A DNA stretch of 54,110 bases from the NCBI GenBank assembly GCA_018053845.1, contig JAGPKU010000006.1:1-54110 (forward strand), read 5' to 3'. The position numbers were made by a program, and so were the translations under genes. Below, piece after piece: positions 5,494-21,401 of the stretch (position 1 is the first letter of the stretch; every line of letters starts with the position of its first letter). The notes beneath the pieces were generated by a model. That model was not told where the DNA came from and did not search any database. It saw only the letters and a list, made by a program, of their open reading frames with translations. Source of the stretch: Syntrophobacterales bacterium. Its GTDB lineage: Bacteria > Desulfobacterota > Syntrophia > Syntrophales > UBA2192.

Positions 5494-5709
5494 ATGAGGA
5501 CCACCATCGTGATCAACGAGGATCTGCTCGACGAGGTCAAGACCCTCTCCGGGGCAAAGTCGAAAAGGGACGCTGTGGAAAAAGCGCTGGAGGAGTTCGT
5601 CAGTCGGAGAAAAGCACGCAGGCTGATGGAATTGGAGGGGAAACTGGACCTTGCCTTCACGCCCGAGGAGTTCCTCGAGAGGAGAAAACGGGATGTTCCT
5701 CATCGATAG
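5494..5709 (+). CDS. vapB: VapB-type antitoxin, left module
   Basis: Seventy-one residues starting MRTTIVINEDLLDEV, a ribbon-helix-helix type N-terminus found in VapB antitoxins, followed by a basic/helical tail that would wrap the toxin. The start at 5494 has GGGAGG 5 nt upstream. It overlaps the toxin gene by 17 bp, which implies translational coupling. The antitoxin should bind its own promoter and neutralise the PIN toxin. It is clearly homologous to the antitoxin at 20346-20552 on the opposite strand (shared MRTT.INE.LL and LTPEE/FTPEE segments). Confidence 0.85.
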   Translation: MRTTIVINEDLLDEVKTLSGAKSKRDAVEKALEEFVSRRKARRLMELEGKLDLAFTPEEFLERRKRDVPHR

Positions 5710-6091
5710 CTCGGCCTGGATCGACTATCTTCGCCCGTCCGGTTCCGCGAAGATCAAGGCCCGAATCCGGAAAATCCTCGAAAGCGAAGAGGCCGCCACC
5801 TGCGGGATCATTGTCGTCGAAATCCTTCGCGGAGCCCGGACGGAAAAGGATTACCGAACCCTCCGGGATTCGTTCCTTTCGCTTCCGGGAATACCCATTA
5901 CCCGGGACGTGATCGACAGGGCTTCCCGCTGGGGTTTCCTGCTCGACAGGAAAGGAAAGCAGGTCCCGACGACGGATCTCATCATCGCATCCTGCGCCCA
6001 CAAAACAGCCCGGCTTGTCCATGCTGACGGGGATTTCGAGATCATCGCCTCGATTTGCGAACTCGACCAGGAGAGACTCCAGACCGCCTGA
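5693..6091 (+). CDS. vapC: VapC-type PIN-domain ribonuclease toxin, left module
   Basis: PIN domain of 132 residues. Acidic residues typical of the active site are visible in FLIDSSAWIDY, in VVEILRGAR and in PTTDLIIAS. VapC toxins cleave tRNA or rRNA when not bound by VapB. Start ATG 5693 lies inside the end of vapB. A palindromic repeat begins 11 bp after the stop. Its paralogue is at 19955-20356. Confidence 0.88.
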   Translation: MFLIDSSAWIDYLRPSGSAKIKARIRKILESEEAATCGIIVVEILRGARTEKDYRTLRDSFLSLPGIPITRDVIDRASRWGFLLDRKGKQVPTTDLIIASCAHKTARLVHADGDFEIIASICELDQERLQTA

Positions 6092-7003: not shown

Positions 7004-7745
7004 AAAAGGGGACAGGCAACATTTTCAATATTGGAGTTTTTTGGGCCGGCCTCTTGGTCTCATAGTCGATTCCAGACCAAATTCCCGGCCCACTTGATCC
7101 CGCCACGTCGACGACCCGAATGGCGCCTGGCGATTCACACATTCTCGAACCCGCTCAATTTCCGACTCTGTCCACTTCGCGTCTACGTAACGAGTCCAGA
7201 ATTCCGGCAGAGCGATTGGGACCTCTGCAAGGAGCCGCTTGGGGGATTCTCCAATCCTTTCCCGGTGGGATGACCACAGCCAATCTCTCGCCGTGGCCGT
7301 CAAACCGGAACGAACGGGGTTTCCCTCCACGTAGCGCATCAGAACCAGAAGATGCTCGTCCCTCTGCACAGGAAAGCTTTTGAAGCGACCTTGCCAAACG
7401 TGTCCGCTGACCTCGTAATATTTATTGTAGCGGCGAACGTGGCTTGTCATGATCAAGTGCATCCAGGCGGAAAGTGCCGTGCCCTGTTCCGGGGATACGA
7501 CGAAGTGAAAATGGTTGGGCATCAGACAATAGGCATAGAGCTTGACGGAAAAACGTTCTGTCGCGCTTGCCACCAAATCCATGAACACATCGTAATCCGG
7601 ATCCTTATGGAATACCTTCTGTTTGTTATTTCCCCTGTTGATGACGTGATAGACAAAGCCGTCAGATAGTCCTCTCGCGATTCTCGGCACTTTGACTCAC
7701 CTTTCGATTGACGCATCAAGCACAAAATGTTGCCTGTCCCCATTT
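7004..7745. mobile_element. RAYT unit with 18-bp inverted flanks
   Basis: GGGGACAGGCAACATTTT (7008-7025) and its exact inverse AAAATGTTGCCTGTCCCC (7724-7741) bracket one REP-associated tyrosine transposase gene. Flanking A/T bases extend the match (GAAAAGGGGAC on the left, GAGAAAATGGGGAC as read from the right). The transposase stop codon abuts the left repeat. REP-type palindromes with the same GGGGAC core occur at 13470-13491 and 14106-14127. Confidence 0.75.
7025..7690 (-). CDS. REP-associated tyrosine transposase (RAYT, Y1_Tnp)
   Basis: Protein of 221 residues. The start PRIARGLSDGFVYHVINRGN and the metal-binding motif MPNHFHFVV (His60, His62) define the IS200-like/REP-associated transposase family. 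A catalytic tyrosine is expected in RRYNKYY, around residues 92-97. These single-strand nucleases recognise and spread REP palindromes, and are usually single-copy domesticated genes rather than classic insertion sequences. The 18-bp inverted flanks and the REPs in neighbouring genes fit this. It separates the AbiEii pair from the RiPP-like operon. Confidence 0.92.
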   Translation of the reverse strand: MPRIARGLSDGFVYHVINRGNNKQKVFHKDPDYDVFMDLVASATERFSVKLYAYCLMPNHFHFVVSPEQGTALSAWMHLIMTSHVRRYNKYYEVSGHVWQGRFKSFPVQRDEHLLVLMRYVEGNPVRSGLTATARDWLWSSHRERIGESPKRLLAEVPIALPEFWTRYVDAKWTESEIERVRECVNRQAPFGSSTWRDQVGREFGLESTMRPRGRPKKLQY

Positions 7746-7747
7746 TC

Positions 7748-8917
7748 TCAACGGCGGGCCAGGGCCCGGAGGATCGGCTCGCTGTGGCGGCCGGCCATGT
7801 GCAGGGGCCGGAACAGATAATAGAAGGGGGCGAGCACGTCGGGCAGGGCAGAGGGGTTCCACTCGCCCGCGGCCAGTGTCGCCATCAGCCTGCCCGCGAA
7901 AAGAAGCTGGTCCCGCCTGCAGTCCTTGGCCTTCAGGTAGAAGAGATACCGGGCCGGGTCGACGTCCGGGTTCACCGGGGTTTTCGCGATGACCGCGGCG
8001 GCCTGCCTTGCGAGGCAGGACACCATGAGGTCCGCATCGATCCGGTCCGTGATTTCCTGCGGCAGGCGCGAACCCGCCAGTCGCTCCGCCAGGAGAAGCC
8101 CGAGCAGCAGGAGCCGCGTCACACCGCAGCGCCCCGCCAGCTCCAGGGTCCGCTGCAGGTCCGGGGGCGTCGGCGACGCGAGCAGGCCACCCACGTCGCA
8201 CACCCATCCCAGCTTGCACCACATGTGCTTGGCGCCGTGCACGCAGAGTATCAGGAGCGTCTCCTCCGGCGGGAGCGCCGGAAAGTCCAAACCGCCCCAT
8301 GTGCGCTTCTCCAGTCTGGACCAGATGTCGAGCCTCTCGTGGTCGAACCCGAAATAGCCGGGCACGACGGACCATTGAAGTTCGACCTGAACCTTCCCGT
8401 CACGGCGGACGAAAGCCGTTTCGTACTCGGTTCGCCGGTGCGCGGAAAGCCGCGCGCCGTCCAGCTCATGATGCGTCCTGTATCCCAGCGCGTCGAGGGC
8501 CTTCATGGCCCTGGGGAGCTTCTCCTTCGGCACGAGGATGTCGAGATCCTTCGACTGCCGGTGCGCCGGGTCCCCGTAGAGCATCACGGACAGGGCAGGC
8601 CCCTTGAAGGGGTACGCCGGAATGCCGTAGGACTCGAAGGCGCGCAGGACCCGGGCCAGCTCCGTGGCGAGCAGAAGCGACCGGGCCGTGTTGTTCTGAT
8701 GAAGACCGCGGAGGCGGCTCAGGGCGGCAGGCGGGACGGTCCCGTTCAGAGTGGCCCGAAGGACCCCGCAGACTGACGGGATCACGTTGTGCCACTCGCA
8801 GAGGCTTGCGAAGCTGTTCCAGTCCAAGTTTGCCGGCAAGGCAGGCGGTGGAGCAAGCCCGTCCTTTCGGAATGCGCCCCTGACAAGGGTCGACAGAACA
8901 TCATTTTCCCGTCGCAT
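7748..8917 (-). CDS. Nucleotidyltransferase family protein (NTP_transf_5 type)
   Basis: Protein of 389 residues from ATG 8917, overlapping the end of the glycosyltransferase gene by 17 bp. The segment PAYPFKGPALSVMLYGDPAH followed by RQSKDLDILV is the KGxxL...R..D.D pattern of the uncharacterised nucleotidyltransferase family often found in RiPP and exopolysaccharide clusters. It could transfer a nucleotide or prime a sugar; the substrate is unknown. It is the last gene of the long minus-strand run starting at 19744. Its end lies next to the RAYT element. Confidence 0.8.
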   Translation of the reverse strand: MRRENDVLSTLVRGAFRKDGLAPPPALPANLDWNSFASLCEWHNVIPSVCGVLRATLNGTVPPAALSRLRGLHQNNTARSLLLATELARVLRAFESYGIPAYPFKGPALSVMLYGDPAHRQSKDLDILVPKEKLPRAMKALDALGYRTHHELDGARLSAHRRTEYETAFVRRDGKVQVELQWSVVPGYFGFDHERLDIWSRLEKRTWGGLDFPALPPEETLLILCVHGAKHMWCKLGWVCDVGGLLASPTPPDLQRTLELAGRCGVTRLLLLGLLLAERLAGSRLPQEITDRIDADLMVSCLARQAAAVIAKTPVNPDVDPARYLFYLKAKDCRRDQLLFAGRLMATLAAGEWNPSALPDVLAPFYYLFRPLHMAGRHSEPILRALARR

Positions 8918-9926
8918 GGAGACACACCTCGTGTGTCGGCTCCTGCACGGTGGCGGCACTCATGCCTGCCCCGAGCCTGCCGTTCAGAAGAGGCCCGATC
9001 TTTCGGGCGTAGAGCCGCGGGATGACATGCGCCGGGTGCATGGCGGCCGCGGCAAGCAGGGTCAGAATCATCCTGAACGGGCGCTGCTCGGCGTAGTGCA
9101 GGGCCGCGTTCTGGTAGAGCCGCTCGCCCGTCTCCCGGCGGACGATGCGGGCCCGTTCACCGACGGGGCGGCGCTTTTCGCTCTCGATAAAGTTGTCGAC
9201 GGACGGCTCCGTCAGGCCCTTCACCCGCGCCTCGCCGCATGCGATCGCCCACCGGTGCAGAAATCGCTGCCTTGCATTTTGCGTCATCGTGAGAGACGCC
9301 CCGTGCAGCCGGTAGAGAAGCAGGGGTTCGGGAACCTTGAGCATGAGGTGCCCTCTCTCGGCCATCCGGATCCACAGGTCCACATCCTCGGCCGGCGCAA
9401 AGGCCTCCCGGTAGCCCCCGACGGCCAGGACGGTCTCGCGGTGCATCAGGGTGGAGGAATTCACGAAGTAGACAGGACGGTTTCCCCGGACAAGCCGGTC
9501 ATACTCGGCGGGCGTGAACGGGCCTTCCGTTCCCACGAGACCCAGGGGCTTCCCTGCATGGTTGATGAAGCAGGCGAGCGTGCCGACGATCTTCGCGACG
9601 GGGTATCGTGCAAGGAAGGCGATCTGGCGCTCAAGCTTCTCTGGCAGGAAAACGTCGTCGGCGTCGAGACGCGCCACCCACGCGGCGTGTGCTTCTTCGA
9701 GGCCCCGGTTCGCCGCGGCGGCAACGCCCCGGTTCTCCTGGCACAGGCAGCGGACGCGGGGGTCTATCGCTGCATAGTGACGGAGGATCGAGGCCGTCGC
9801 ATCCGTGGAGCCGTCGTCGACGATCAGCAGCTCCAGGTCCCGGTGCGTCTGGGACAGAACGCTTTCGATCGCCTGCGCGAGGTATCGCTCCCCGTTATGG
9901 ACGGGTATGACGACGGAGACTTTCAT
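8901..9926 (-). CDS. Family 2 glycosyltransferase
   Basis: GT-A fold enzyme of 341 residues. VSVVIPVHNGERYLAQAIES, the nucleotide-binding VDDGSTD and the metal motif ARLDADDV are all in place, as is the acceptor-side EDVDLWIRM. It transfers a sugar from a nucleotide-sugar to an unknown acceptor. It overlaps the ABC exporter gene by 32 bp and the nucleotidyltransferase by 17 bp, so the three are probably translated together. In this operon it may glycosylate the modified peptide or a carrier lipid; that is inference. Confidence 0.88.
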   Translation of the reverse strand: MKVSVVIPVHNGERYLAQAIESVLSQTHRDLELLIVDDGSTDATASILRHYAAIDPRVRCLCQENRGVAAAANRGLEEAHAAWVARLDADDVFLPEKLERQIAFLARYPVAKIVGTLACFINHAGKPLGLVGTEGPFTPAEYDRLVRGNRPVYFVNSSTLMHRETVLAVGGYREAFAPAEDVDLWIRMAERGHLMLKVPEPLLLYRLHGASLTMTQNARQRFLHRWAIACGEARVKGLTEPSVDNFIESEKRRPVGERARIVRRETGERLYQNAALHYAEQRPFRMILTLLAAAAMHPAHVIPRLYARKIGPLLNGRLGAGMSAATVQEPTHEVCLHATGK

Positions 9927-11760
9927 AGGGGATGACCTTGCCTTTTCTCCCGTCGGGGATCAACTGGCACTCGGCGAGTTTCCGGTAGGTGTCGCTCGTT
10001 TTCAGGAGCTCGGCGTGCGTGCCCTCGGCGACCAGGCGGTTTTCGTCCAGCAGCAGGATCCGGTCGCAGCCGACAACCGTCGAGAGCCGGTGGGCGACGA
10101 CGAAGAGCGTTTTGCCGCGGGTCTCGCGGGGCAGCGCCTCGAGAAGCGACTTCTCGGTCAGGCCGTCGAGGGCCGCCGTGGGCTCGTCGAGGACGAGGAT
10201 GTCGGGGTCCTTCACCAGGGCCCGGGCGATGGCGAGCCGCTGCTTCTGCCCCTCGGAGAGGTTCACCCCCTTTTCGCCGACCTCGCTTTCATAGCCGCCG
10301 GGCAGGCCCAGGATGAAGTCGTGGATGCCCGCAACCCGGGCCGCTCGGGTGATCTCCTCGTCCGTCGCCCCGGGGTTTCCGTAACGGAGGTTCTCCCCGA
10401 TCGTCCCGGACATCAGGATCGGGCTCTGCGAGACATAGCCGATCCGCTGCCTCAGCGACTGAACGTTGTAATTCCCGGCGGGCCTGCCGTCGTAGAGGAC
10501 CTCGCCCGCCGTCGGGCTGTAGAACCGGAGCAGGAGGCTCAAAAGCGTCGTCTTGCCCGCGCCGCTGGGGCCGACAACGGCAACGTGCTCGCCCGGTCGC
10601 ACATGGAAGGAAACATCCCGGAGGACGGGGTTTACAGGGTCGTAGGCGAAAGAGACGTTCCGGAACTCGACCTCCCCCCTGAGCGACCCGACCACGGCTC
10701 CATCGCCGGCTTTTCCTTCCGGTTCCACGTCGAGGAGGGCCGTGAGGCGTTCGAGAGATGCGCGGATATTCTGCATCTGCAGCCCCGTCGAGGCGAGCGA
10801 CTGCGCCGGGCCGAAGACGCGGCCCAGGTAAGCCTGGAAGGCGAAGAGAGACCCCAGGCTCCAGTGGCCCGTGATCACCCAGTACGCGCCGATCGCGAAG
10901 ACGCAGAAGTTCACGAGGCTCGGCGTCGACGAGAGGGCAAGCCCCGTCACGGAGCCCACCACGGAGCGCTCCGCCGACAGGCGGAAGACCTCCCGGAGGC
11001 CGGCCAGGATCTTCCCGACGGCCCTCTCCTCGGCCGCAAAGGCCTTGACGAGAGGAACGGAGTGGAGCGTCTCCTGGAAGCCGCTCATGTAGCGGGCGTT
11101 CTCCTCGCTGCCCGCGTGGTTCAGGGCGTGCATCCGGTCGGAGAAGCGCCGCAGGGCGAGCAGGTACACGGGCACGGCGGCGAGGGCCGCCAGCGCGAGT
11201 CTCCACTCCAGCCAGAACAGGAGGCAAAGCCCTCCGATGAAATACAGGACGTTCGTCAGAATGCCCACGAGGCTCCCCGAGAGAAACCACGTCACCCCGC
11301 CGATGTCGCCCGTCATGCGGGCCATCAGGTAGCCCGCCTGGTTTTTGTCGAAAAAGGATTTCGGGAGCCGGAAGGAATGCTCCAGAACCTGCTTCTGGAT
11401 GTCGAGGGTCACTTCCTGGCTGTAGCGCAGGAAGAACCAGTTCTGGAACAGGCCCAGGGCCCGCGTGAAGACGGCGATGGCCGCCATCAGCAGCAGCACC
11501 CAGGGAAGAAGCGACAGCTGTTTCCCTAGGATCACGTCGTCGATGACAAAGCGGGAAACGAGCGGCATGGGGAAGGCCATGAGGGCGTTGAGCAGGATGA
11601 ACCCCGCGCCCAGTGCTCCTTTCTTCCAGTGCCGCCGGAAGAACGGCCGGTGGCGGCGCAGGTTCTCACCGATTCCGGCGTAGTTCTTCCCACCGGCGAT
11701 CCGGTCCTCCGGCGCCTTGCGCGCAAGCCCGCTTTTGAGACATTCAATCCAGGTTTTCAT
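9895..11760 (-). CDS. ABC exporter, fused membrane and ATPase domains
   Basis: Protein of 621 residues with an N-terminal six-helix ABC exporter domain (about residues 50-330) and a C-terminal ATPase: Walker A VVGPSGAGKTT, signature LSEGQKQR, Walker B ILVLDEPTAALDG, H-loop VAHRLS. It should pump a substrate out of the cytoplasm as a homodimer. There is no N-terminal C39 peptidase domain, so leader removal would need a separate protease; the S26-type peptidase in the same gene run is a candidate. Location makes it the likely exporter of the peptide product. Confidence 0.92.
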   Translation of the reverse strand: MKTWIECLKSGLARKAPEDRIAGGKNYAGIGENLRRHRPFFRRHWKKGALGAGFILLNALMAFPMPLVSRFVIDDVILGKQLSLLPWVLLLMAAIAVFTRALGLFQNWFFLRYSQEVTLDIQKQVLEHSFRLPKSFFDKNQAGYLMARMTGDIGGVTWFLSGSLVGILTNVLYFIGGLCLLFWLEWRLALAALAAVPVYLLALRRFSDRMHALNHAGSEENARYMSGFQETLHSVPLVKAFAAEERAVGKILAGLREVFRLSAERSVVGSVTGLALSSTPSLVNFCVFAIGAYWVITGHWSLGSLFAFQAYLGRVFGPAQSLASTGLQMQNIRASLERLTALLDVEPEGKAGDGAVVGSLRGEVEFRNVSFAYDPVNPVLRDVSFHVRPGEHVAVVGPSGAGKTTLLSLLLRFYSPTAGEVLYDGRPAGNYNVQSLRQRIGYVSQSPILMSGTIGENLRYGNPGATDEEITRAARVAGIHDFILGLPGGYESEVGEKGVNLSEGQKQRLAIARALVKDPDILVLDEPTAALDGLTEKSLLEALPRETRGKTLFVVAHRLSTVVGCDRILLLDENRLVAEGTHAELLKTSDTYRKLAECQLIPDGRKGKVIPYESLRRHTRP

Positions 11761-11857
11761 GCTGATGAAAATGGGGACCGACCATTCTTTCCCCAGAAGA
11801 TGCCAGAATCATGCCCGGTTAGGTTCAATCGGGAAAGGCCCTATCGCTTCGTCCGGA

Positions 11858-12061
11858 TCACCCGGGTCCCGTCGAGACGACGCGGTGGACGACACGCTCC
11901 CCCTGCCCCGGCGACGTGAAGATGATGTCGTCGCCCCGCCGCAGTTCCTCGGCACGGCATGGGGCGAATCGGATCCGGTCCCCCGGCTGAAAGAGGGGCC
12001 GCATGCTGTCGCCCCTCACGAACAGGGACGGTCCTGCATCAGCTGGTGAGCGCATGGTCAT
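11858..12061 (-). pseudogene. Truncated S26 peptidase, duplicate of 13495-14082
   Basis: Sixty-seven codons from ATG 12061, overlapping the methyltransferase end by 23 bp. From RGDSMRPLF to VVHRVVSTGPG it is nearly identical to the full peptidase at 13495-14082, and the DNA matches over about 150 bp (11868-12013 versus 13918-14058). It stops where the full protein continues for about another 130 residues. Ser19 and His59, the expected catalytic pair, are retained, so a reduced function cannot be excluded. Most likely the relic of a duplication. Confidence 0.75.
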
Positions 12062-13310
12062 GGCCCCCTTTCCCCGGTCTTTGCGCCGGGACATCAGCCT
12101 CAGTCCTAAACGACGGGGCGACGCGATTACCGTCTCGGCCAAGCAGTTGCCCGAGGCAGTGCAGAACCGATTCGGCGCTTGGCCCCAACTGGGTCAGGCA
12201 ATCCGCACCCCGCCCCCCTTCTTTAAAGAAAGAAGCAACCGCTTCTGCATGCCGCTCGAGGTCCATGCAAAGAATTTCCACATCCTCCAGGGTGCCGTCG
12301 GTCACGGAAAGATCAACCGGCGCCGTCTCCGGCGCTCCGATCTCTCCCTCCGCCTCCCGGCCCGATGCGCCTTCCTTTTTCGTCACGACAGCCAGTACAT
12401 AGCGGGGATCGGCCTGGTACCGGCAGGAGAGAACTTCGAAGGTCCGGGAAAGCTCCGACGACAGGGACTCCGCGGTGTGGCAGCGGCTGAACAGCCCGTA
12501 TTGCAGCCGCTCCTCGCAGGCATCCCTTTCCCCGAAGCAGAAATCGAGCGAGACCTGACCCCGCAGCCACGCCACCATGGAATCGGGCCACGAGGAGCCC
12601 ATCAGGAACCACCAGCAGGGATAAATCTTCCGCTCGGCAACGACCAGGCCGATCCCGCCCGGCCGCAGGACCCTGGCCAGTTCTCTTTGGAGCGCCACCG
12701 CACGCTTGGCATCCGGGAGCCCTCCATAGACCTCGAGGAGAAAACCGTCGAAAGCGCCCGGCCGAAATCCCAGCTCCATCATGTCCATCCCGGCAAAAAC
12801 GGCAGGGACGCGCAGAAGACCAGCCCAGTCCCGGGCCAGCTTCACGAGTGACAGGTCGGTGTCGACCCCGACGACGCGCAGACCCTCTTTCGCCCAGGCC
12901 AGGCACTCGCGACCTGTCCCGCACCCGATATAGAGGACACGGCCGTCCCGGCCAAGATATTTGCACAAGGCATTCCGGCGGTCCCCAGCACACGGCGATT
13001 CGTCCACGTCGAAGGTGCCGCTCTCAAGCCGCATCTGCAAATCCCGCTGCAGGGTTTTCAGATTCCGTTTCCACTGCTCCCTGCAGGCGTTGACGATCTC
13101 CCCCTGGGAGGATGTCTTCTTCAGAAGCGCGAGGAGCTTTTTCTGGAGAAAATCATCGAAATCCCAGAGCTGCCGGTGGAAGAACCCCTGTCCAGACTGA
13201 CGCGTCGCAAACCGGACGAAGGGCTTCATGGCAGGGCTGGAAATGGAGATCCGCAAGGAGAGATCGAGAATTCTTGACACACGATCTTCGGGATTCTTCG
13301 CGCCCCTCAT
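12039..13310 (-). CDS. Class I SAM-dependent methyltransferase
   Basis: Protein of 423 residues. The SAM-binding motif VLYIGCGTGRECLAW and the acidic end of strand 2, VVGVDTD, lie in the middle third; RVLRPGGIGLVVAE is the usual post-strand-4/5 region. An N-terminal stretch of about 100 residues and a C-terminal tail of about 100 residues flank the domain and are not recognised. It lies inside the peptide cluster, between relics of duplicated genes, so methylation of the peptide or of a sugar is plausible but unproven. Confidence 0.82.
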   Translation of the reverse strand: MRGAKNPEDRVSRILDLSLRISISSPAMKPFVRFATRQSGQGFFHRQLWDFDDFLQKKLLALLKKTSSQGEIVNACREQWKRNLKTLQRDLQMRLESGTFDVDESPCAGDRRNALCKYLGRDGRVLYIGCGTGRECLAWAKEGLRVVGVDTDLSLVKLARDWAGLLRVPAVFAGMDMMELGFRPGAFDGFLLEVYGGLPDAKRAVALQRELARVLRPGGIGLVVAERKIYPCWWFLMGSSWPDSMVAWLRGQVSLDFCFGERDACEERLQYGLFSRCHTAESLSSELSRTFEVLSCRYQADPRYVLAVVTKKEGASGREAEGEIGAPETAPVDLSVTDGTLEDVEILCMDLERHAEAVASFFKEGGRGADCLTQLGPSAESVLHCLGQLLGRDGNRVAPSFRTEADVPAQRPGKGGHDHALTS

Positions 13311-13363: not shown

Positions 13364-13472
13364 CTAACTCCGCTGCCTTCGCGTCTCGGGAAACAGGCCC
13401 TGGAAGTCGGCCTCTTCACAGAACCAGTGGGGAGCCCACACATCGCGGCGCCGGTAGTAGCCTCTAACGAAA
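13364..13472 (-). pseudogene. Relic of a second scmF (C-terminal end only)
   Basis: The minus strand encodes GYYRRRDVWAPHWFCEEADF then GLFPETRRQRS and a stop. This matches the C-terminus of the scmF product at 15460 (NYYRSRNLWAPFWFCEEARS, GLFPETRIRR). Nothing else of a radical SAM enzyme is left. A REP palindrome (13470-13491) sits exactly at the upstream break. Evidence that a second scmF gene once stood here. Confidence 0.8.
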
Positions 13473-13491
13473 AAGGGGACTGTCCCCATTT
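13470..13491. repeat. REP palindrome, copy 1
   Basis: GGGGAC-T-GTCCCC (13475-13487) with A-rich and T-rich edges. Shares the AAAAGGGGAC core with the RAYT flanks and is nearly identical to 14106-14127. It marks the edge of the scmF relic and the 3' end of the peptidase gene. Confidence 0.8.
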
Positions 13492-13494
13492 CTT

Positions 13495-14082
13495 TCATGG
13501 CAGGGCCCGCTCGTCGACGAAGACCCTGAAGGGCCGGCGAATGGTCCACGTGCCGGCGCCCGGGGGGCGCCTGCCGATGATGCGCCGTCCCAGGACGAGT
13601 TGCATTTCCCTTGCCCCGTCACGCTCGAAGGTGATGACCCTCGGGCGAATGGCGGGGGGCAGCAGCGCCCGGAAAAACCCGCAGCGCGCAAGGCCCCGGT
13701 AGCAGGGGTTCAGGGCGTAGGACGCCAGGTGATCCGCCCTCCGGGCGGCGCGGATGCAGGCGGCCATCAGGCGCCCCGCGGGGCCGCCCGCGACGGACAT
13801 CACTTTCCCCCGGCGCTCGACGGCCACGGCGCGGCCGATGAGGTCCGCCTTTCCCAGGACCCAGGCATCGGCGCACGGGTTCGCGTCCCCCCGGGTCCGG
13901 ATCCCCCCGGGCCCCGTCGAGACGACGCGGTGTACGACACGTTCCCCCTGGCCCGGCGACGTGAAGATGATGACGTCGCCCCGCCGCAATTCCTCGGCAC
14001 GACAGGGCGCGAATCGGATCCGGTCCCCGGGCCGGAAAAGAGGACGCATGCTGTCTCCCCGGCAGAAGATCTCACGTTCCAT
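13495..14082 (-). CDS. ER-type S26/S24-like signal peptidase, soluble
   Basis: Protein of 195 residues that begins almost at the active site: RGDSMRPLF (Ser11), a second GD at RRGDVIIF, and VVHRVV (His51). The Ser/His arrangement is that of ER/archaeal-type signal peptidases (SipW-like), which use His rather than Lys as base. No transmembrane anchor precedes Ser11, which is unusual for a signal peptidase and suits a cytoplasmic leader peptidase. The start overlaps the end of scmC by 11 bp. Within the cluster it is the best candidate to cut the precursor leader. A truncated copy exists at 11858. Confidence 0.75.
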   Translation of the reverse strand: MEREIFCRGDSMRPLFRPGDRIRFAPCRAEELRRGDVIIFTSPGQGERVVHRVVSTGPGGIRTRGDANPCADAWVLGKADLIGRAVAVERRGKVMSVAGGPAGRLMAACIRAARRADHLASYALNPCYRGLARCGFFRALLPPAIRPRVITFERDGAREMQLVLGRRIIGRRPPGAGTWTIRRPFRVFVDERALP

Positions 14083-15022
14083 GGGCTGATGCCCCCCGCC
14101 CGCGGAAAAGGGGACTGTCCCCTTTTTCCAATACCTCCTCGATCTTTTCCCAGAAGCGGCCCGTGAGGCTCACCCGGAGCCGGTAAGCCGGCAAGGCCAG
14201 GGAAAAATCGACGGCATTCTCGAAAGCCCTTGTTGCGATATTCATCGGGTCTTCTCTCAGCACGAAAGGTCCCACGGACCAGAAGACCTCCATGGCGGCA
14301 CGCCTGCAGGCAACGGCCGCCTCGCCTCTCCCCGCCGGAGTTGCCTCGTCCGCTTCCGACTGATCCAGGAAGAAGATTGCCTCCAGCGGCACCGATCGCC
14401 GGACGTCCCAGGTGCTTTCACTCCCCGCGCGAAGATCGCTCCAGGTGGGAAGCGCGTGCGCCCGGTAGTACCCGGAATCGTCACGAATCACGAGAGCAAG
14501 ATCATCGGCAAGCGCTCTCCAGGGCGGCGGCAGGCGCCTGCAGCACGTCGATTTGCCGATCCCGCCGCGGCCGGCGAGCAGCACTCCCCGCCCGTTTCTC
14601 TCCACCAACGCAGCATGGGCGGGGAAGCCTCCCATCCGAAGGGCCTCAAGGTAAAGGGGCAGCAGAACGTGGCGCATGCTCTCGAGATCCGTGACTTCGT
14701 CTCGCGCGGGAGGAAGGAGGCACAAGATCTCCTGCCCTGCCCTCGGACGGTCGAGAACGGCGCCGGGAACCCGCCGGAAATCCCATACCACTCCTTCCCA
14801 GGCCGGCCTGTCCGACGCCCCGGGGCCGGGCCTCATCCCGGCTGCGCGCTTCAACGTCACGGTTTCAGCGTACCCGCAGCCTGCACTCGGGGAAAGCCCC
14901 AAGATGACGGAGAACCGCTCGAGCCAGTCCTTCGCTTCCGCCGTCGCCTGCAGCACCCATCCTGCCCTGTCGTCCATGCTCAGTTCGTACATCGCCTTGG
15001 TCTCGTCGAAAAGATCCTTCAT
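14072..15022 (-). CDS. scmC: HPr-kinase-like cassette protein ScmC
   Basis: Protein of 316 residues with a P-loop GRGGIGKSTC at about 151-160, followed by WRALADDLALV and by PTWSD...TWDVRRSVPLEAIFFL. This pattern is that of the ScmC family of the SynChlorMet cassette, related to HPr kinases (assigned from memory of the family). Role unknown; it may phosphorylate or nucleotide-activate the peptide. It follows the Cys-rich peptide gene after 12 bp. The last residues (EKGDSPLFRGRG) are encoded by a REP palindrome at 14106-14127, so the C-terminus has been changed by REP insertion. Confidence 0.8.
   Translation of the reverse strand: MKDLFDETKAMYELSMDDRAGWVLQATAEAKDWLERFSVILGLSPSAGCGYAETVTLKRAAGMRPGPGASDRPAWEGVVWDFRRVPGAVLDRPRAGQEILCLLPPARDEVTDLESMRHVLLPLYLEALRMGGFPAHAALVERNGRGVLLAGRGGIGKSTCCRRLPPPWRALADDLALVIRDDSGYYRAHALPTWSDLRAGSESTWDVRRSVPLEAIFFLDQSEADEATPAGRGEAAVACRRAAMEVFWSVGPFVLREDPMNIATRAFENAVDFSLALPAYRLRVSLTGRFWEKIEEVLEKGDSPLFRGRGASAHGT
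14106..14127. repeat. REP palindrome, copy 2, inside scmC
   Basis: AAAAGGGGAC-T-GTCCCCTTTT is a perfect inverted repeat around a single T. It is read through as EKGDSPLF in scmC. Same core as 13470-13491 and the RAYT flanks. Confidence 0.85.
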
Positions 15023-15034
15023 GGCCGGGACGGA

Positions 15035-15424
15035 TCAGGCACAACCGCCGTTGCACTCTTCATAGGCAGAGTACCCGTTGAGACAGACGCACGACACCCG
15101 TCCCCCGGTGTAGCAAAGTGCCGCCGCATTGGCTCCGCCGGTACACTGGCATGCCACCGTGATACCAGAGCCGCCGCCGTAATACCCGGTGGACGCGCCG
15201 TTTGAGCAGCAGATATAACACACCGAGCTGTAGCTGCAGGCCCCGGCCCCTTGTTCGCAATAGCCCGTATAATTTCCGTCCTGGCACCAGGCGGTAGGGA
15301 TGCAGGAGCCGAGCATGCACTCGTTGACACAGCTGCCGCCATTGCAGTATCCCGAGGCGCCGAGGGCGCTTCCCGAGGCCATGTCGACGAGAACGGGTTT
15401 TTCGTATTTCCGCCGCTTACCCAT
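15035..15424 (-). CDS. Cys/Gly-rich candidate RiPP precursor
   Basis: Protein of 129 residues with 17 cysteines. A short basic leader-like start, MGKRRKYEKPVLVDMASG, has no cysteine. From residue 27 on cysteines recur every few positions (27, 32, 36, 41, 47, 56, 63, 69, 72, 73, 92, 94, 104, 112, 114, 124, 128), among many Gly, Ser, Tyr and Ala. The core opens with CNGGSC and closes with CNGGC. There is no signal peptide. GAGGTGA lies 7-8 nt before ATG 15424. It sits between scmF and scmC in one strand-wise run with a PqqD-like protein and two SPASM radical SAM enzymes. This is the expected context for a modified-peptide precursor. Function is inferred; no family recognised. Confidence 0.8.
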   Translation of the reverse strand: MGKRRKYEKPVLVDMASGSALGASGYCNGGSCVNECMLGSCIPTAWCQDGNYTGYCEQGAGACSYSSVCYICCSNGASTGYYGGGSGITVACQCTGGANAAALCYTGGRVSCVCLNGYSAYEECNGGCA

Positions 15425-15459
15425 TAGGATGTCACCTCGCGTTAAGACTCGCCGGGAAC

Positions 15460-16629
15460 CTATGCCGCTGCGGCGCTGTCGGCTGCAACCGCTTCATTTC
15501 GCCTGATCCGTGTTTCGGGGAAAAGGCCTTCGCTCCGCGCTTCCTCGCAGAACCAGAAGGGCGCCCAGAGGTTGCGGCTCCGGTAATAGTTCTGGGCGAT
15601 GCAGCTGCCCAGGCAGACTCCTTTCATGAGACACTCGCCGCACACCCCTTCGAGGCGGCGGGGCATCCCATCGCGTATCTCATTCAGGACGGGGCTGTCT
15701 TTCCATACCCCGGAAAGGTCGTCCTTCGCTGCATGGCCGAAGACCAGCTCCGGGACTGACTCCCCGATCCCGCAGAGGGCATAGGAACCACCGGCCAGAA
15801 CGCCCAAGATGTGCCGGATGCCGCAGATGCCGCAGTCGCCGTCCGGACTGAACAGCCTGCCCAGGGCGCGAAAGGCGACCGGATGGCCGTAGAACAGCCG
15901 GACCTTCGCCGTCCGGGCCAGGTCGTTTTCGACCCACTTCCCCAGGGCGATCAGTTCCTCGACGCCGAGAGTCTCCCCCTTCTCGTGCATCTTCTCGCCA
16001 CGCGCCGTGGGCTGGACGAGGTTGAACTTCACCGAAGAGGCGCCCAGCGATTCGGCCAAGCGGACGACCGCCTCGATCTGCTCCACGTTTCGGCGCATGA
16101 GGGTCATGATCAGCTGCGGCCGGATGCCTGTCGCGACGAGATTCCGGATGCCTGCGACGGCGGCATCGAAGCAGCCCTTGACGCCGCGGACCCACTCGTG
16201 GGTTCCGGCGTCGGCCCCGTCGAGGCTCACGGAGATGTGGTAGAGGCCCGAGCGGGCGAGTTCCCGCGCCAGCTCCGGCGTGCAGAGCACGCCGTTGGTC
16301 TCCATGTTGAAGCGGATCTTCTCTTCCCGGAGGATCTCCAGGATTTCCCCGATCCGCGGGTGCATGAGCGGCTCGCCCCCGGTGAGCTTCACGGACGAGA
16401 GGCCGAGAGGTTTCGCCTGCTCCAGGATGTGCCTGAACAGCTCCGGCTCGACGGCCGGGTACTGCCGTTTGGCCGTCTGGTGGGGCGGCTCGATCCAGCA
16501 GTGCCGGCACCGCAGGTTGCAGCCCCCGGTGAGGTAGAAGTAGAGCGTATTGAGGGGCGGGACGGGACGGGCGGCCGTTTCGACCCCGCCGCGGCGTTCG
16601 AGAACAGGCGCTGTCTGATTCGCACTCAC
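15460..16629 (-). CDS. scmF: Radical SAM/SPASM peptide maturase ScmF
   Basis: Protein of 389 residues. The start LNTLYFYLTGGCNLRCRHCW places the radical SAM cluster motif CxxxCxxC at Cys37, 41 and 44. KLTGGEPLMHPR is the SAM-binding GGE motif. The C-terminal SPASM region has CGICG, CGIGE and GVCGECLMKGVCLGSC for auxiliary clusters. The HCWIEPP..and tail NLWAPFWFCEEA fit the ScmF branch as I remember it. GTG 16629 is preferred (GGGGAGG 9 nt upstream) over GTG 16635. It overlaps the membrane protein stop codon region. Likely cross-links or epimerises the Cys-rich peptide. Confidence 0.88.
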   Translation of the reverse strand: MSANQTAPVLERRGGVETAARPVPPLNTLYFYLTGGCNLRCRHCWIEPPHQTAKRQYPAVEPELFRHILEQAKPLGLSSVKLTGGEPLMHPRIGEILEILREEKIRFNMETNGVLCTPELARELARSGLYHISVSLDGADAGTHEWVRGVKGCFDAAVAGIRNLVATGIRPQLIMTLMRRNVEQIEAVVRLAESLGASSVKFNLVQPTARGEKMHEKGETLGVEELIALGKWVENDLARTAKVRLFYGHPVAFRALGRLFSPDGDCGICGIRHILGVLAGGSYALCGIGESVPELVFGHAAKDDLSGVWKDSPVLNEIRDGMPRRLEGVCGECLMKGVCLGSCIAQNYYRSRNLWAPFWFCEEARSEGLFPETRIRRNEAVAADSAAAA

Positions 16630-16631
16630 GA

Positions 16632-18311
16632 TCACGATCCTCCCCGGCCGGCGTCGGCCGCAGTCAATTCAGGGGCGTTCACCCTCACCAGATAATCCCT
16701 TTTCCCCTTGCAGGAGCCGCCGCAGCAGGATTTCGACCCCGGCGGGAGGGGAAATTCCGGCGATTTCTCCATGCTGTACGGGTCAAACCCCCCGAGGCCC
16801 ATCGGGTTTCCCGTCCAAGCGTAGGCGTTTTCGACCTTCTCCGCCGCGAGCGTCCGGAAGAGGCGATCTTGATCGCCGGGACTCCGCGCCACGAGAAAAA
16901 CGCGGTCGAAAAAGAGCGGGCCTGCGTGCTCCATCTTGCCCGTGTCATCGAACACGACGGCATCTCCCGACGAGGTGTGCTTCTCCAGGAATGCAATCCG
17001 TGCGGCATTGTAGTCCTTGTATTTCAGGAATCCGTCCCTTGACTCCTGGATCCCGTTCACGAAAGCAACCCCGCAGAAGAAGGCCAGCACGAGGCACATC
17101 CCGCGGGCTGCAAAAATGGCCTTTCTCTCCAGGGCAATCAGGAGGATGACGAAGGGCACAACGGGCAGCCATACGGAAACGACGATCCATGCCCCCGGGC
17201 GCAGGATCGCGGCGCCGAGGGCGAGGCAGACAACGATGGTGGCCGTCAGGATTGCCTCGAGAGCCCCTTGCCCCTTCTTCAGCCTCTCGAGCCGCCCGGT
17301 AACACCGCAGAAAACGAAGAGCACGGCCGGGAAGAGGGCCATGAGATGGGACACGGTGATCCGGGCCGCCGTCATGAGCACGGCGCCGAACAGCAGGACG
17401 ACGGACAGGACCGACAGAACCGCTTTTCGGACCTGGCCGCTCCCTTCCCGCCGGGACAGGATGAACAGGGCGCACGATAGGGCAAGGCCCCCGCCAAGGG
17501 CCGCAAGGCGGATCGGGGAAAGAGCGTAGAACGGCAGAAGGAGCCGGAGGTAGGGGCCGGGGAAACGGCCGTGAAAAACAACGTCATGGAGGATCAGCAC
17601 GATCAGACAAAACAAACCGCCGGCAAAGACCGTCCACAGATCGCCCAGGCGTCTATGCGCAAACAGGACGACTGCCGAGCCGAGATAATAGGAAAAGACG
17701 ACGGCGAGGCACTCGATCCTGACGATCGCCGAAGTCCCCACCAGCACCGATGCGAGGAACAGTTTCGCCCAGGAAGGGTTGCCCCCGAAATGGCCCGCCA
17801 GAAGCCAGAGCGCCGAGACGATCAGCAACAGGGAAAGGGCCGTCCCCGAGAACTGAAAGCCCTGCATCAAGACGGGGGAACCGAGAAGAAAGGCCGCAAG
17901 CAGGAGCCAGTAGAGGAACTCCCTCTGCATCACCCGGTCCAGGATCAGGCCCAGGACGAGCGCCGAGAAAAAGACGAAGAGGATCGGCGCGAAGTCGACG
18001 GCCCGCTCGCCGAAAACCGGGTAAAGGAGGCTCGCCGTCCAGGGAAAGAGCGGGGGCGGAATCGCGTAGAGTTTTCCGCCGCGGGATTCGAAAAAGCCCC
18101 GAGGTCCCGAAAGATCCTCCGCCTCGAAGCCGAGGGCAAGAGCCGGCGCGTGGATCTCGAAAGACCCGTTCAGGGCGAAGTTTTTCATCTGGACATAGTG
18201 GACGCCTTCCTCGTTGGATGCGAGGCCCGGTGGCGCCAGCACGTACACCGCCCCCGCGAGCGCCGCGAGGAGGACAACGAGAAAAAGTCTTTCACCGGGA
18301 TTTCTGTTCAT
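16632..18311 (-). CDS. Polytopic GT-C-like membrane glycosyltransferase
   Basis: Protein of 559 residues from ATG 18311. About 10-12 hydrophobic helices follow an N-terminal anchor. The first exported loop contains LASNEEGVHYVQMKNFAL, which resembles the acidic catalytic loop of GT-C/PMT-type transferases that use lipid-linked sugars. A soluble C-terminal part of about 130 residues ends with a Cys motif SCCGGSCKGKRDY. It lies between scmE and scmF. It may glycosylate the exported product at the outer face; the enzyme class is a moderate call and the role is inference. Confidence 0.65.
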   Translation of the reverse strand: MNRNPGERLFLVVLLAALAGAVYVLAPPGLASNEEGVHYVQMKNFALNGSFEIHAPALALGFEAEDLSGPRGFFESRGGKLYAIPPPLFPWTASLLYPVFGERAVDFAPILFVFFSALVLGLILDRVMQREFLYWLLLAAFLLGSPVLMQGFQFSGTALSLLLIVSALWLLAGHFGGNPSWAKLFLASVLVGTSAIVRIECLAVVFSYYLGSAVVLFAHRRLGDLWTVFAGGLFCLIVLILHDVVFHGRFPGPYLRLLLPFYALSPIRLAALGGGLALSCALFILSRREGSGQVRKAVLSVLSVVLLFGAVLMTAARITVSHLMALFPAVLFVFCGVTGRLERLKKGQGALEAILTATIVVCLALGAAILRPGAWIVVSVWLPVVPFVILLIALERKAIFAARGMCLVLAFFCGVAFVNGIQESRDGFLKYKDYNAARIAFLEKHTSSGDAVVFDDTGKMEHAGPLFFDRVFLVARSPGDQDRLFRTLAAEKVENAYAWTGNPMGLGGFDPYSMEKSPEFPLPPGSKSCCGGSCKGKRDYLVRVNAPELTAADAGRGGS

Positions 18312-18327
18312 GTTTTCCGTGTCCGTT

Positions 18328-19446
18328 TCAGCACAACAGGGCCCGGTCGGGCAGCCTTCCGCCCTCTGCAAGGAATGTCCGCAGGCAGGCGTCGGGGCTC
18401 GGGTGGTTGACCTCGCCCATGAGCGTGTAGGAGAGCCCCGGGCAGTTGCCCGTGCAGAAATTCACGTACGGGCACCCCTCGCAGAAGGAAAAGCCGGAGA
18501 GGGGAATCTCGTCGCGCCGGCGCAGGGCGTTGAGGGCCGCATGCTCCCTCCAGATCACGCCGAGATCATCGCGGTTGATCCTGCCGAGTTCGATGTGGGA
18601 CAGCATCGTGCAGGGCGTGATCGCGCCGTCGGCCCTCACGGCAAGCCCCGACCGGTAGCATCCGCAGCCGGTGAGATATCCCCGCTTCGGCGATGTCAGC
18701 TGCTTTTCCCCGTTCCGGGCATCCTCCATGTCCCACCAGCCCCTGGCTTCCGCCAGCGGTCCCGCCATGGCGTTGATCCGCCCGTTGTATTTCTTCGTCA
18801 GCCGAAGCAGGGTCTCCATGGCAACCATCCGGTCTTCCGTCGTCAGCTGGACCATCTCGGCGTTCTTGCGGCACAGGCCCATGGCGCCGGCGCTGTTGGT
18901 CCCGAAGGAGGGAAGGCCGATGTCCTCGAGGAGAAACCGGGCGATGGCCTCGAGGTCGCGGACGTTCTTTCGGTGAATGGTCACGCGGACCGCGGCGCGG
19001 ACGCCGTTTCGCCGCAGGGTCAGAAGCCCCTCCACGGCCCTGGCGAAGCTTCCCCTGCCCCGCATGGCGTCGTGGCTCTCCGGCATGGAGCCGTCGATGG
19101 AGACCTGGACGTAGTTGCAGCGCCCCGTCGCTGCGAGAAAGGCCGCCGTCTCGTCGGTGATGAGCGTCCCGTTCGAAAGGACCGCGAAGCGCATGCGGTT
19201 TTTCACGATGCCGCCGATAATTTCCTTGAAATCCTCGCGGATGAAAGGCTCGCCTCCCGCCAGCGTCACCTCAGTGACGGCACAGCGGTTGAGTTCCCCG
19301 AAGAACCGGAGCCACTCTTCCGCCGGGAGGTCGCCGTCGGCGTCGCCCGCGCTCTCGAAGTGGTAGCAGTAGCGGCACCGCAGGTTGCAGCGGTTCGTGA
19401 TGTCGATGTCAACCTTCTTCGGGGTCCGCATCAGCCGCATGGACAT
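18328..19446 (-). CDS. scmE: Radical SAM/SPASM peptide maturase ScmE
   Basis: Protein of 372 residues. ITNRCNLRCRYCYHF gives CxxxCxxC at Cys20, 24 and 27; VTLAGGEPFIRED is the SAM site. The SPASM region shows GCGCYRSG, a Cys in ITPCTML, and CEGCPYVNFCTGNCPG. The overall order and the ending HPSPDACLRTFLAEGGRLPD match the ScmE family of the SynChlorMet cassette as I recall it. ATG 19446 lies 1 nt after the scmD stop, so the two are translationally coupled. With the PqqD-like partner it should modify the ribosomal peptide. Confidence 0.88.
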   Translation of the reverse strand: MSMRLMRTPKKVDIDITNRCNLRCRYCYHFESAGDADGDLPAEEWLRFFGELNRCAVTEVTLAGGEPFIREDFKEIIGGIVKNRMRFAVLSNGTLITDETAAFLAATGRCNYVQVSIDGSMPESHDAMRGRGSFARAVEGLLTLRRNGVRAAVRVTIHRKNVRDLEAIARFLLEDIGLPSFGTNSAGAMGLCRKNAEMVQLTTEDRMVAMETLLRLTKKYNGRINAMAGPLAEARGWWDMEDARNGEKQLTSPKRGYLTGCGCYRSGLAVRADGAITPCTMLSHIELGRINRDDLGVIWREHAALNALRRRDEIPLSGFSFCEGCPYVNFCTGNCPGLSYTLMGEVNHPSPDACLRTFLAEGGRLPDRALLC

Positions 19447-19447
19447 T

Positions 19448-19744
19448 TCACCCTGCCGCTTCCGCCGCATCCAGCTCGTAGCCCACGAGCCCCTGCTGCT
19501 CGAGGGCCGCGATGAACTGGCGGGTGTGCTCGGCGGCGTCCTCGGGAACATCCTCGGCTTCATCGCGGAGACTCTTCACGATGTCCTCCACGCCGTGCCT
19601 GCCGTCGAGGAGCTTCCAGATGAAGACCCCCGTGGGGTTGAGGCCGAAGGCGTTGCCCGTGTCGGGGTCGAAGAGGATCGCCCAGTCGTCGAATTCCTCG
19701 CGCAGCACGATCAGGGGGTTGGCGATGGGGTTTTTAGCTTCCAC
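19448..19744 (-). CDS. scmD: PqqD-like peptide-recognition protein ScmD
   Basis: Protein of 98 residues with the PqqD/RRE fold pattern: DWAILFDPDTGNAFGLNPTG, then VFIWKLLDGRHGVEDIV and a C-terminal helical part. Such proteins bind the leader of a precursor peptide and present it to the radical SAM enzyme. It matches the ScmD branch. It is the first gene of the minus-strand run; the ~200 bp upstream hold a palindrome (19779-19797) but no promoter I can defend. Confidence 0.88.
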   Translation of the reverse strand: MEAKNPIANPLIVLREEFDDWAILFDPDTGNAFGLNPTGVFIWKLLDGRHGVEDIVKSLRDEAEDVPEDAAEHTRQFIAALEQQGLVGYELDAAEAAG

Positions 19745-19954: not shown

Positions 19955-20356
19955 CTAAAAGGCAACCGTTTTCAGGGACGTGTGGCGGGACAGGAGTTCG
20001 TAATGCCGGTCCGAGTGCATCAGCGTTGCGCAGTGGCGCATGGCAACGGACGCAATCAGGGTATCCAGCGCCGGGATGTTGAGGCCCCGCTGGCGGCAAA
20101 GAAAGGCCGTTTCCCAGGCTTTCTGCCAGGCCTTTGCATCCAGCGACAGGGCGGGAAGCGCCGAAAAATCCTTCAGCAGCATGTTATATTCTTTTTGCGA
20201 CCTTGCGCCTCTCAACAGCTCGAAGATGACGATCTCCGTCATGCAGACCCGGTCGTCGGCGATCAGGCCTGCCATGCGGACCTTCAAGGAGTCGTTCCCC
20301 CCCCGGAAAAAATTGACCCAGACGGTCGTATCCACCAGGAATCGTTCATCGCTCAT
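19955..20356 (-). CDS. vapC: VapC-type PIN-domain toxin, right module
   Basis: PIN domain of 133 residues: FLVDTTVWVNFF, VIFELLRGARS and PALDTLIAS carry the expected acidic residues. It overlaps the antitoxin gene by 11 bp. It aligns along its length with the left vapC (shared E.LRGAR..K.Y and D.LIAS). Transcribed toward the peptide cluster, as is the left module. Confidence 0.88.
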   Translation of the reverse strand: MSDERFLVDTTVWVNFFRGGNDSLKVRMAGLIADDRVCMTEIVIFELLRGARSQKEYNMLLKDFSALPALSLDAKAWQKAWETAFLCRQRGLNIPALDTLIASVAMRHCATLMHSDRHYELLSRHTSLKTVAF

Positions 20357-20686: not shown

Positions 20687-20998
20687 ATGGATATCCAAAA
20701 GGAAATCGAGAGCATCAGCTCCCAGATCGTCGAGAAGTACCGGCCCGACAAGGTCATCCTCTTCGGGAGTGCTGCACGGGGAGAGGCGGGGCCGGACAGC
20801 GATCTCGACTTTCTCATCATCAAGAAAGACACTCCGTACTATGGAGCGGACAGGATCCGCGAGTTGAGCCGTATGATCGACAGGAATGTCCCTGTGGATT
20901 TTCTTGTCTACCGGCCCGAGGAGTGGGAGCTGCGCTTGCAAATGGGGGATCCCTTCCTTAAGCTCATCCTCCGGGAAGGAAAGGTTCTCTATGGCTGA
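20687..20998 (+). CDS. mntA: MNT nucleotidyltransferase (MntA-type antitoxin)
   Basis: Protein of 103 residues. The minimal nucleotidyltransferase motif GSx10DxD is exact: Gly27-Ser28 and Asp39-x-Asp41 in FGSAARGEAGPDSDLDFLI. In HEPN/MNT modules this protein AMPylates and silences the HEPN ribonuclease. It overlaps the HEPN gene by 8 bp. It diverges from the right VapBC module. Lower GC than the neighbours suggests acquisition by transfer. Confidence 0.88.
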   Translation: MDIQKEIESISSQIVEKYRPDKVILFGSAARGEAGPDSDLDFLIIKKDTPYYGADRIRELSRMIDRNVPVDFLVYRPEEWELRLQMGDPFLKLILREGKVLYG

Positions 20999-21401
20999 CA
21001 GCGAAACCGTCCGCGAATGGCTGTCGAAAGCGGACGAGGATTTCGAGTTCGCGTCAGTCATCCTCACGGAAGGCAAGCCGTCCCACCCTCAAATCTGCTT
21101 TCATTTCCAGCAGGCGGCTGAAAAATATCTCAAAGCGTGCACCGTTCTCTACGATCTGGAATTTCGCAAGACACTCGACCTGACCCTGATCTTGAAAAGT
21201 CTCCTCGGCCGTGAACCGGGGTTCGAGATGCTCAGGGATGACGTGGAGTTTTTGAACGTCTTTTACATTGATACCCGGTATCCCGTTCACTGGCCCATCA
21301 CGTATTCCCGCGGAGAGGCGCAGAAGGCACTCGAAGCTGCATCGAGAATCCGGGACTGTGTTCGAAAAGCGGTCTCTTGCAAGGAGCCTTTGCTCAGGTA
21401 A
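20991..21401 (+). CDS. hepT: HEPN-domain protein (HepT-type toxin)
   Basis: Protein of 136 residues from ATG 20991. WLSKADEDFEFASVILTEGK and FHFQQAAEKYLKACTVLYD are typical HEPN helices. The catalytic Rx4-6H motif of HEPN RNases is not in canonical spacing; the nearest candidate is RYPVH (R-x3-H) in the FYIDTRYPVHW segment common to MNT-linked HEPN proteins. Toxin role therefore rests on the pairing with the MNT gene. Confidence 0.85.
   Translation: MADSETVREWLSKADEDFEFASVILTEGKPSHPQICFHFQQAAEKYLKACTVLYDLEFRKTLDLTLILKSLLGREPGFEMLRDDVEFLNVFYIDTRYPVHWPITYSRGEAQKALEAASRIRDCVRKAVSCKEPLLR

Follow-up and report, generated by a model that had tools for sequence, protein, structure and literature searches.

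A cysteine-rich open reading frame as the probable ribosomal precursor of a SynChlorMet cassette in a Syntrophobacterales bacterium

The candidate precursor gene and its cassette

The window, the whole stretch of DNA analysed here, comprises 54,110 nucleotides of a Syntrophobacterales genome (assembly GCA_018053845.1, contig JAGPKU010000006.1, positions 1 to 54,110). Translation of its minus strand at 15035–15424 gave a 129-amino acid product with 24 Gly and 17 Cys, the latter at residues 27, 32, 36, 41, 47, 56, 63, 69, 72, 73, 92, 94, 104, 112, 114, 124 and 128, preceded by a Cys-free segment with a basic start. A Shine-Dalgarno sequence, GAGGTG (15433–15438, minus strand), lies 8 nt before the ATG, and the gene sits directly between scmF, whose stop is 35 nt upstream, and scmC, whose ATG is 12 nt downstream. 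A sequence-only reading of this DNA had described the same ORF, its good ribosome site and its placement, all of which were confirmed. It had also claimed that the product lacks a signal peptide and would need the ABC transporter for export; the start is indeed not signal-peptide-like, and an MsbA-type ABC gene is present in the operon. The predicted leader covers residues 1–22 (15359–15424, minus strand), containing Y7-E-K-P10-V-L12 and ending in A20-L-G22, and the predicted core, residues 23–129 (15038–15358, minus strand), is Cys/Gly-rich with a degenerate CxxGxxAxxx repeat.

No match to the ORF was found in NCBIfam or Pfam. With the wider precursor set described below, a PDB profile search gave no match, and a Pfam search matched a single member, which was judged spurious. 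AlphaFold returned no confident fold for the precursor (mean pLDDT 41). Overlapping ORFs at 15019–15342, 15060–15320 and 14456–15205 were set aside as genes solely for want of support.

The cassette genes all lie on the minus strand, and ScmC, ScmD, ScmE and ScmF each exceed their NCBIfam cut-offs, placing the operon among SynChlorMet cassettes. ScmD (19448–19744; TIGR04248, 133 bits, cut-off 100) is a PqqD-like protein with predicted leader contacts N36, H73 and F77. It is followed by scmE (18328–19563; TIGR04250, 592 bits, cut-off 400), whose true start probably lies downstream of that of the ORF, the match to the model beginning at residue 47, and, beyond a glycosyltransferase-like membrane protein (16632–18371; NF047440 below cut-off), by scmF (15460–16635; TIGR04251, 602 bits, cut-off 400). 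Both ScmE and ScmF carry the radical SAM/SPASM motifs CX3CX2C and CX2CX5CX3C, and the motif Cys residues are invariant in 23/23 ScmF rows. Downstream of the precursor, scmC (14072–15022; TIGR04249, 261 bits, cut-off 125) encodes an HprK-like protein, and the next gene (13495–14082) an archaeal-type S26 peptidase (TIGR02228, 54.5 bits, cut-off 51.85) with Ser11 and His51, the predicted leader peptidase. Further along are a SAM methyltransferase domain protein (12039–13310), the MsbA-type ABC protein as candidate product exporter (9895–11760), an accessory family-2-type glycosyltransferase (8901–9926) and an NTP_transf_5 nucleotidyltransferase (PF14907; 7748–8959). Among the best 80 ScmF loci (see below), the nucleotidyltransferase recurred in 35, the glycosyltransferase in 6 and the membrane protein in 4 loci other than the window; the methyltransferase protein was present in only 4, so it is probably accessory. 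A search of the available literature for SynChlorMet, ScmE/ScmF or TIGR04248–TIGR04252 returned nothing about the cassette.

Several rearrangements were observed around these genes. A 155-nt direct repeat, 90% identical (11861–12015 and 13906–14060), places a partial copy of the S26 gene 2 kb from the intact one. After the S26 gene, a fragment at 13367–13501 (minus strand) resembles the ScmF C-terminus (52% over 44 amino acids), and a similar scmF 3' copy at 8636–8860 of another locus (L062) precedes the second precursor there, hinting at duplication of a precursor module. As read from translations only, the flanks at 7025–7690, 5651–6091, 19955–20356 and 20687–21401 resemble genes for a transposase of REP type, for two proteins with PIN domains and for a nucleotidyltransferase/HEPN pair.

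The precursor had been called the missing one of the cassette, which does not hold in that form: NCBIfam already has a model, ScmA (TIGR04252), though it is blind to this ORF and nearly all its relatives. The precursor from NaphS2 (locus L081) scored 69 bits against this model of only 49 positions (cut-off 35 bits), and the window ORF gave no match. At E ≤ 0.01 the model matched 17 of 81 precursors, only two of them near cut-off level (2e-8), and ScmA was found above cut-off in none of 23 genomes of the window's phylum with ScmF at 1e-100. In a wider sense the window ORF is an ScmA: it belongs to the same cassette, is a small ORF adjacent to scmF, and shares with L081 an RRE-type leader and a Cys/Gly repeat core. 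The idea of a precursor is thus known to the NCBIfam curators, whereas the window ORF, like most others of its type, goes unrecognised.

Similar ORFs at other ScmF loci

Related loci were collected with a 23-row ScmF alignment, and the best 80 matched loci from named genomes were used; more exist. A strict rule (a Y..P.[LVIMFA] leader and two CxxG, outside scmF) found ORFs in 54/80 loci; five dinucleotide-shuffled sets gave 1, 0, 1, 2 and 2. A relaxed rule of the same type, also accepting a Trp leader, found them in 64/80, against 2–4 in shuffles, and returned a single ORF, an MFS transporter frame, from 55,963 bases of other real DNA. Review by eye removed MFS transporter frames (window 4658–5341, L060 and L062), L077, L092 minus strand, L096 3550–3849 and, as doubtful, L132, and added L072, which has a Trp leader; with L077 and L132 out and L072 in, 63/80 loci carry an ORF with a [Y/W]xxPx[L/V/I] leader and a Cys/Gly core. 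No acceptable precursor was seen even by eye in the other 17, several of which are short contigs; among these 17, L108 is a contig of genome G326, which has a precursor on another contig. The precursor-bearing records carry about nineteen phylum-level names in their titles, including methanogenic archaea; nearly all are metagenome-assembled genomes, so single records may be misbinned. The sequence-only reading had proposed a search of scmE/scmF loci for a comparable small Cys-rich ORF, whose absence would have counted against it; such ORFs proved common beside scmEF.

Alignment of 81 precursors gave the consensus YExPxLxxL, a short tail of small residues and then CxxGxxAxxx repeats. The core unit is a C-x-x-G-x-x-A-x-x-x decapeptide, with 60% of 483 Cys gaps at 9–11 residues compared with 12% in shuffled cores; Cys spacing is independent of the selection rule, of which CxxG was part. 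In precursors of the window's genus this repeat takes a condensed form of 14–17 Cys, with CC and CxC pairs. Five same-genus copies of the window's kind (type A), 34–44% identical to it, keep Y-E-x-P-x-L invariant together with 8 Gly and 11 of the window's 17 Cys, the Cys figure being somewhat inflated as aligners favour Cys columns. In 6/10 same-genus precursor pairs (those with computable dS) dN was below dS, with dS saturated. The genus also carries a second kind of precursor, type B.

Cassette composition was examined by tblastn in those 38 of the best 80 loci that had 5 kb or more of flanking sequence on each side. ScmD and ScmE were present in all 38, ScmC in 32, the S26 peptidase in 31, the ABC transporter in 29 and the NTP-transferase in 22; ScmD, ScmE, ScmC and S26 travel together. 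ScmF (TIGR04251, E ≤ 1e-100) occurs in 11/297 genomes of the phylum and 15/41 near relatives, and ScmE in 7/7 genomes of the window's genus. When all loci are counted, only 37/91 precursors are followed by a ScmC within 250 nt. Precursor and scmC have been duplicated together in the window's genus. L060 has three precursors, each ahead of its own ScmC, and L062 two such pairs, which suggests that each ScmC is matched to its core.

Precursor arrays took other forms elsewhere. L113 holds at least seven precursor ORFs, one of them (11440–11967) frameshifted-looking, with three ScmC copies. L129 (8374–9505, upstream of scmF) has five short, similar tandem precursors of two CxxG units each, and in L047 (12608–13051) a (DR)n linker joins the leader to a core of about ten CxxG units, many of them CDSGSAAGGK.

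Co-occurrence was then assessed in 155 genomes of the window's class, using an ScmF threshold of 1e-100 and a precursor profile, A2. ScmF was found in 27 genomes and an A2 match in 34, including 26 of the 27 with ScmF. Training rows of A2 had come from 14 of these 27; among the 13 ScmF genomes that gave no row, all 13 had an A2 match, compared with 8/128 genomes without ScmF at this threshold (Fisher 2.6e-13, a guide only, the genomes being related). Weaker ScmF matches were tallied in those eight A2-positive genomes only, and seven of them have an ScmF-like match at 1e-94 to 1e-99. The eighth (G316) has a precursor match at E 6e-13 and no close ScmF (best 5e-44), possibly owing to an assembly gap or another maturase. 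In four genomes (G157, G291, G326 and G416) the precursor profile matched on a contig other than that of scmF, which may mean that the precursors there work in trans, or else that the assemblies are broken. One genome, G424, has three ScmF and four precursor matches on several contigs. The recurrence at ScmF loci and the genome-wide co-occurrence with scmF support the earlier proposal that the ORF is the cassette's precursor.

Leader recognition and leader removal

The best PDB match of the ScmD profile was LppB (9x8z, E 8.4e-8) of the linear polyphosphorylated peptide (LPP) system (Popov et al. 2026, PMC13381572). According to the available text of that paper, LppB D70 hydrogen-bonds leader Tyr-16, as established by crystal structure and mutation, and N33 fixes the kink at the leader Pro (PMC13381572). 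In the alignment, ScmD N36 corresponds to N33, position 73 to D70 and F77 to F74; of 76 rows, 91% keep N36 and 96% keep F77. With this homology to a solved RRE–leader complex and conserved predicted leader contacts, ScmD can be assigned to the RREs of the PqqD fold.

Leader type was also compared with ScmD sequence, with L091 set to Tyr by hand, as the WxxP matched first in it stands ahead of its YMKP. Residues D, E, H or Q occupy position 73 in 50/50 Tyr-leader loci and in 4/9 Trp-leader loci, and this position was the strongest leader-linked column of 1200 tested across five cassette proteins. The next ScmD column, position 35, aligns to LppB L32, likewise a contact in the available description. 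Ranked by mutual information, column 73 leads the others only narrowly, and the Trp-leader loci, few in number and clustered, amount to some five changes on a tree of poor resolution; the support from covariation is therefore real but modest. Leader recognition by ScmD, whose sequence bears the marks expected of leader binding, is thus supported by inference, and the N-terminus, which had been put forward as the part bound by ScmD, is the part most likely to be read by it.

For the leader end, an A-x-[GA] motif 13–17 residues past the Tyr or Trp and before the first Cys was found in 39/81 precursors, against 10.0 ± 2.8 and a maximum of 21 in 1000 shuffles; for this count the 81 comprised 10 Trp leaders, L091 still among them. 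Signal peptidases prefer small residues at −3 and −1, with which this leader end is consistent. In the window, A20-L-G22 would place the leader Tyr at −16, as in LppA as described in the available text. Ser11, His51 and D72 of the S26 peptidase are invariant in 58/58 rows; Ser11 and His51 match in kind, and at near-equal spacing, their counterparts in the LppS triad, given there as S29, H68 and D93 (PMC13381572). In type B leaders a Cys follows just 14 residues past the Tyr with no A-x-[GA] ahead of it, so their cleavage must differ. ScmC keeps the Walker A motif and the DD pair in the alignment, and against the PDB it matched HprK weakly (E 0.034).

Proposed pathway, alternatives and related systems

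On balance the ORF most likely encodes the ribosomal precursor handled by the SynChlorMet cassette, with a leader bound by ScmD; we put the probability of this reading at about 85%, and the identity of the ORF as a precursor is strongly supported. In the pathway proposed, ScmD, as a PqqD-type RRE, would hold the leader through Y7-x-x-P10-x-L12, as covariation and homology suggest. ScmE and ScmF, both full SPASM radical SAM enzymes, would work on the Cys/Gly core, most likely forming one Cys-centred link per CxxGxxA-like repeat. Judging by homology, the HprK-like kinase ScmC would phosphorylate core Ser/Thr, the Ser-His S26 peptidase would cut the leader after A20-L21-G22, where the site motif matches, and the MsbA-type ABC protein would export the product. 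The NTP-transferase and the glycosyltransferases are possible decorators.

Links centred on Cys are slightly favoured over other core chemistries. SPASM enzymes perform several chemistries, and a precursor whose non-Cys residues are modified by ScmE/ScmF, for example by alpha-carbon epimerisation, C–C cross-links or methylation, with Cys kept for disulfides or metal after export, is the chief competitor, though the less probable of the two; Cys is the most conserved core residue, at about one per repeat, which speaks for its direct involvement. Far less probable is an unmodified metal- or cluster-binding structural protein that merely resides in the operon. The ORF's 17 Cys, including the CC and CxC pairs typical of the window's genus, would suit such a protein, but the leader motif fits an RRE and covaries with ScmD, the ORF co-occurs tightly with scmF, its Cys are regularly spaced with Gly and Ala, and it matches no family. 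Consumption of the precursor into a small cofactor, as PqqA into PQQ, is suggested by the PqqD- and PqqE-like enzymes of the cassette and made equally improbable by cores that are long, repetitive, variable and up to seven per locus, and by the ABC exporter in 29 of the 38 well-flanked loci.

The nearest described system to the proposed precursor pathway is that of the LPPs, whose gene set comprises SpI, a discrete RRE, an HprK-like kinase, an NTP transferase and an MsbA-like exporter (PMC13381572); the window operon has a counterpart of every one. Insofar as the available text describes them, the two systems share an archaeal-type signal peptidase, the other four components, a [Y/W]xxP leader with Tyr at −16, and one to three variable precursors. 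They differ in that SynChlorMet adds two SPASM enzymes, whereas that text mentions no radical SAM enzyme, describes no Cys/Gly repeat and gives LPPs as restricted to Bacillota, with their own leader end, FET before the cut (PMC13381572). Multiple phosphorylation of core Ser3 is a further mark of LPPs, and in place of their leader, YxxPxVLxHQxIxFETxxS, the window has YEKPVLVDMASGSALG. Lasso peptides of the paeninodin and Bsf types likewise share a YxxPxL/WxxP leader, a discrete RRE and an HprK-like kinase, as far as the available descriptions extend (PMC10368454, PMC13381572). Neither a macrolactam synthase nor a B2 peptidase was found among the eleven window proteins scanned. In sactipeptides and ranthipeptides, SPASM radical SAM enzymes act on Cys-rich cores, and the defining feature is a thioether from Cys to an acceptor carbon; SynChlorMet differs in having two SPASM enzymes plus a kinase and an S26 peptidase. 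Four points go beyond the sequence-only reading: the ten-residue repeat, the S26 enzyme as predicted leader peptidase, a kinase role for the HprK-like ScmC, and the resemblance to LPPs.

More tentatively, SynChlorMet may be a large unrecognised class of exported CxxGxxA-decapeptide-repeat peptides, in which the RRE–kinase–signal-peptidase line of LPP and lasso type has gained two SPASM enzymes, with one cross-link per repeat giving rigid phosphorylated rods, in bacteria and archaea, mostly anaerobes, that carry about nineteen phylum-level names. With the precursors described here, the SynChlorMet cassette gains a substrate recognisable at most of its loci, and the current ScmA model is shown to miss nearly all of these precursors; the cassette also gains predictions for the leader, the core, the cut site and the leader-contact residues. 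An orphan radical SAM cassette is thereby tied to a pathway with solved structures, and the chemistry of ScmE and ScmF becomes directly testable with short, regular precursors, such as those of loci L114 and L102, rather than the complex 17-Cys one.
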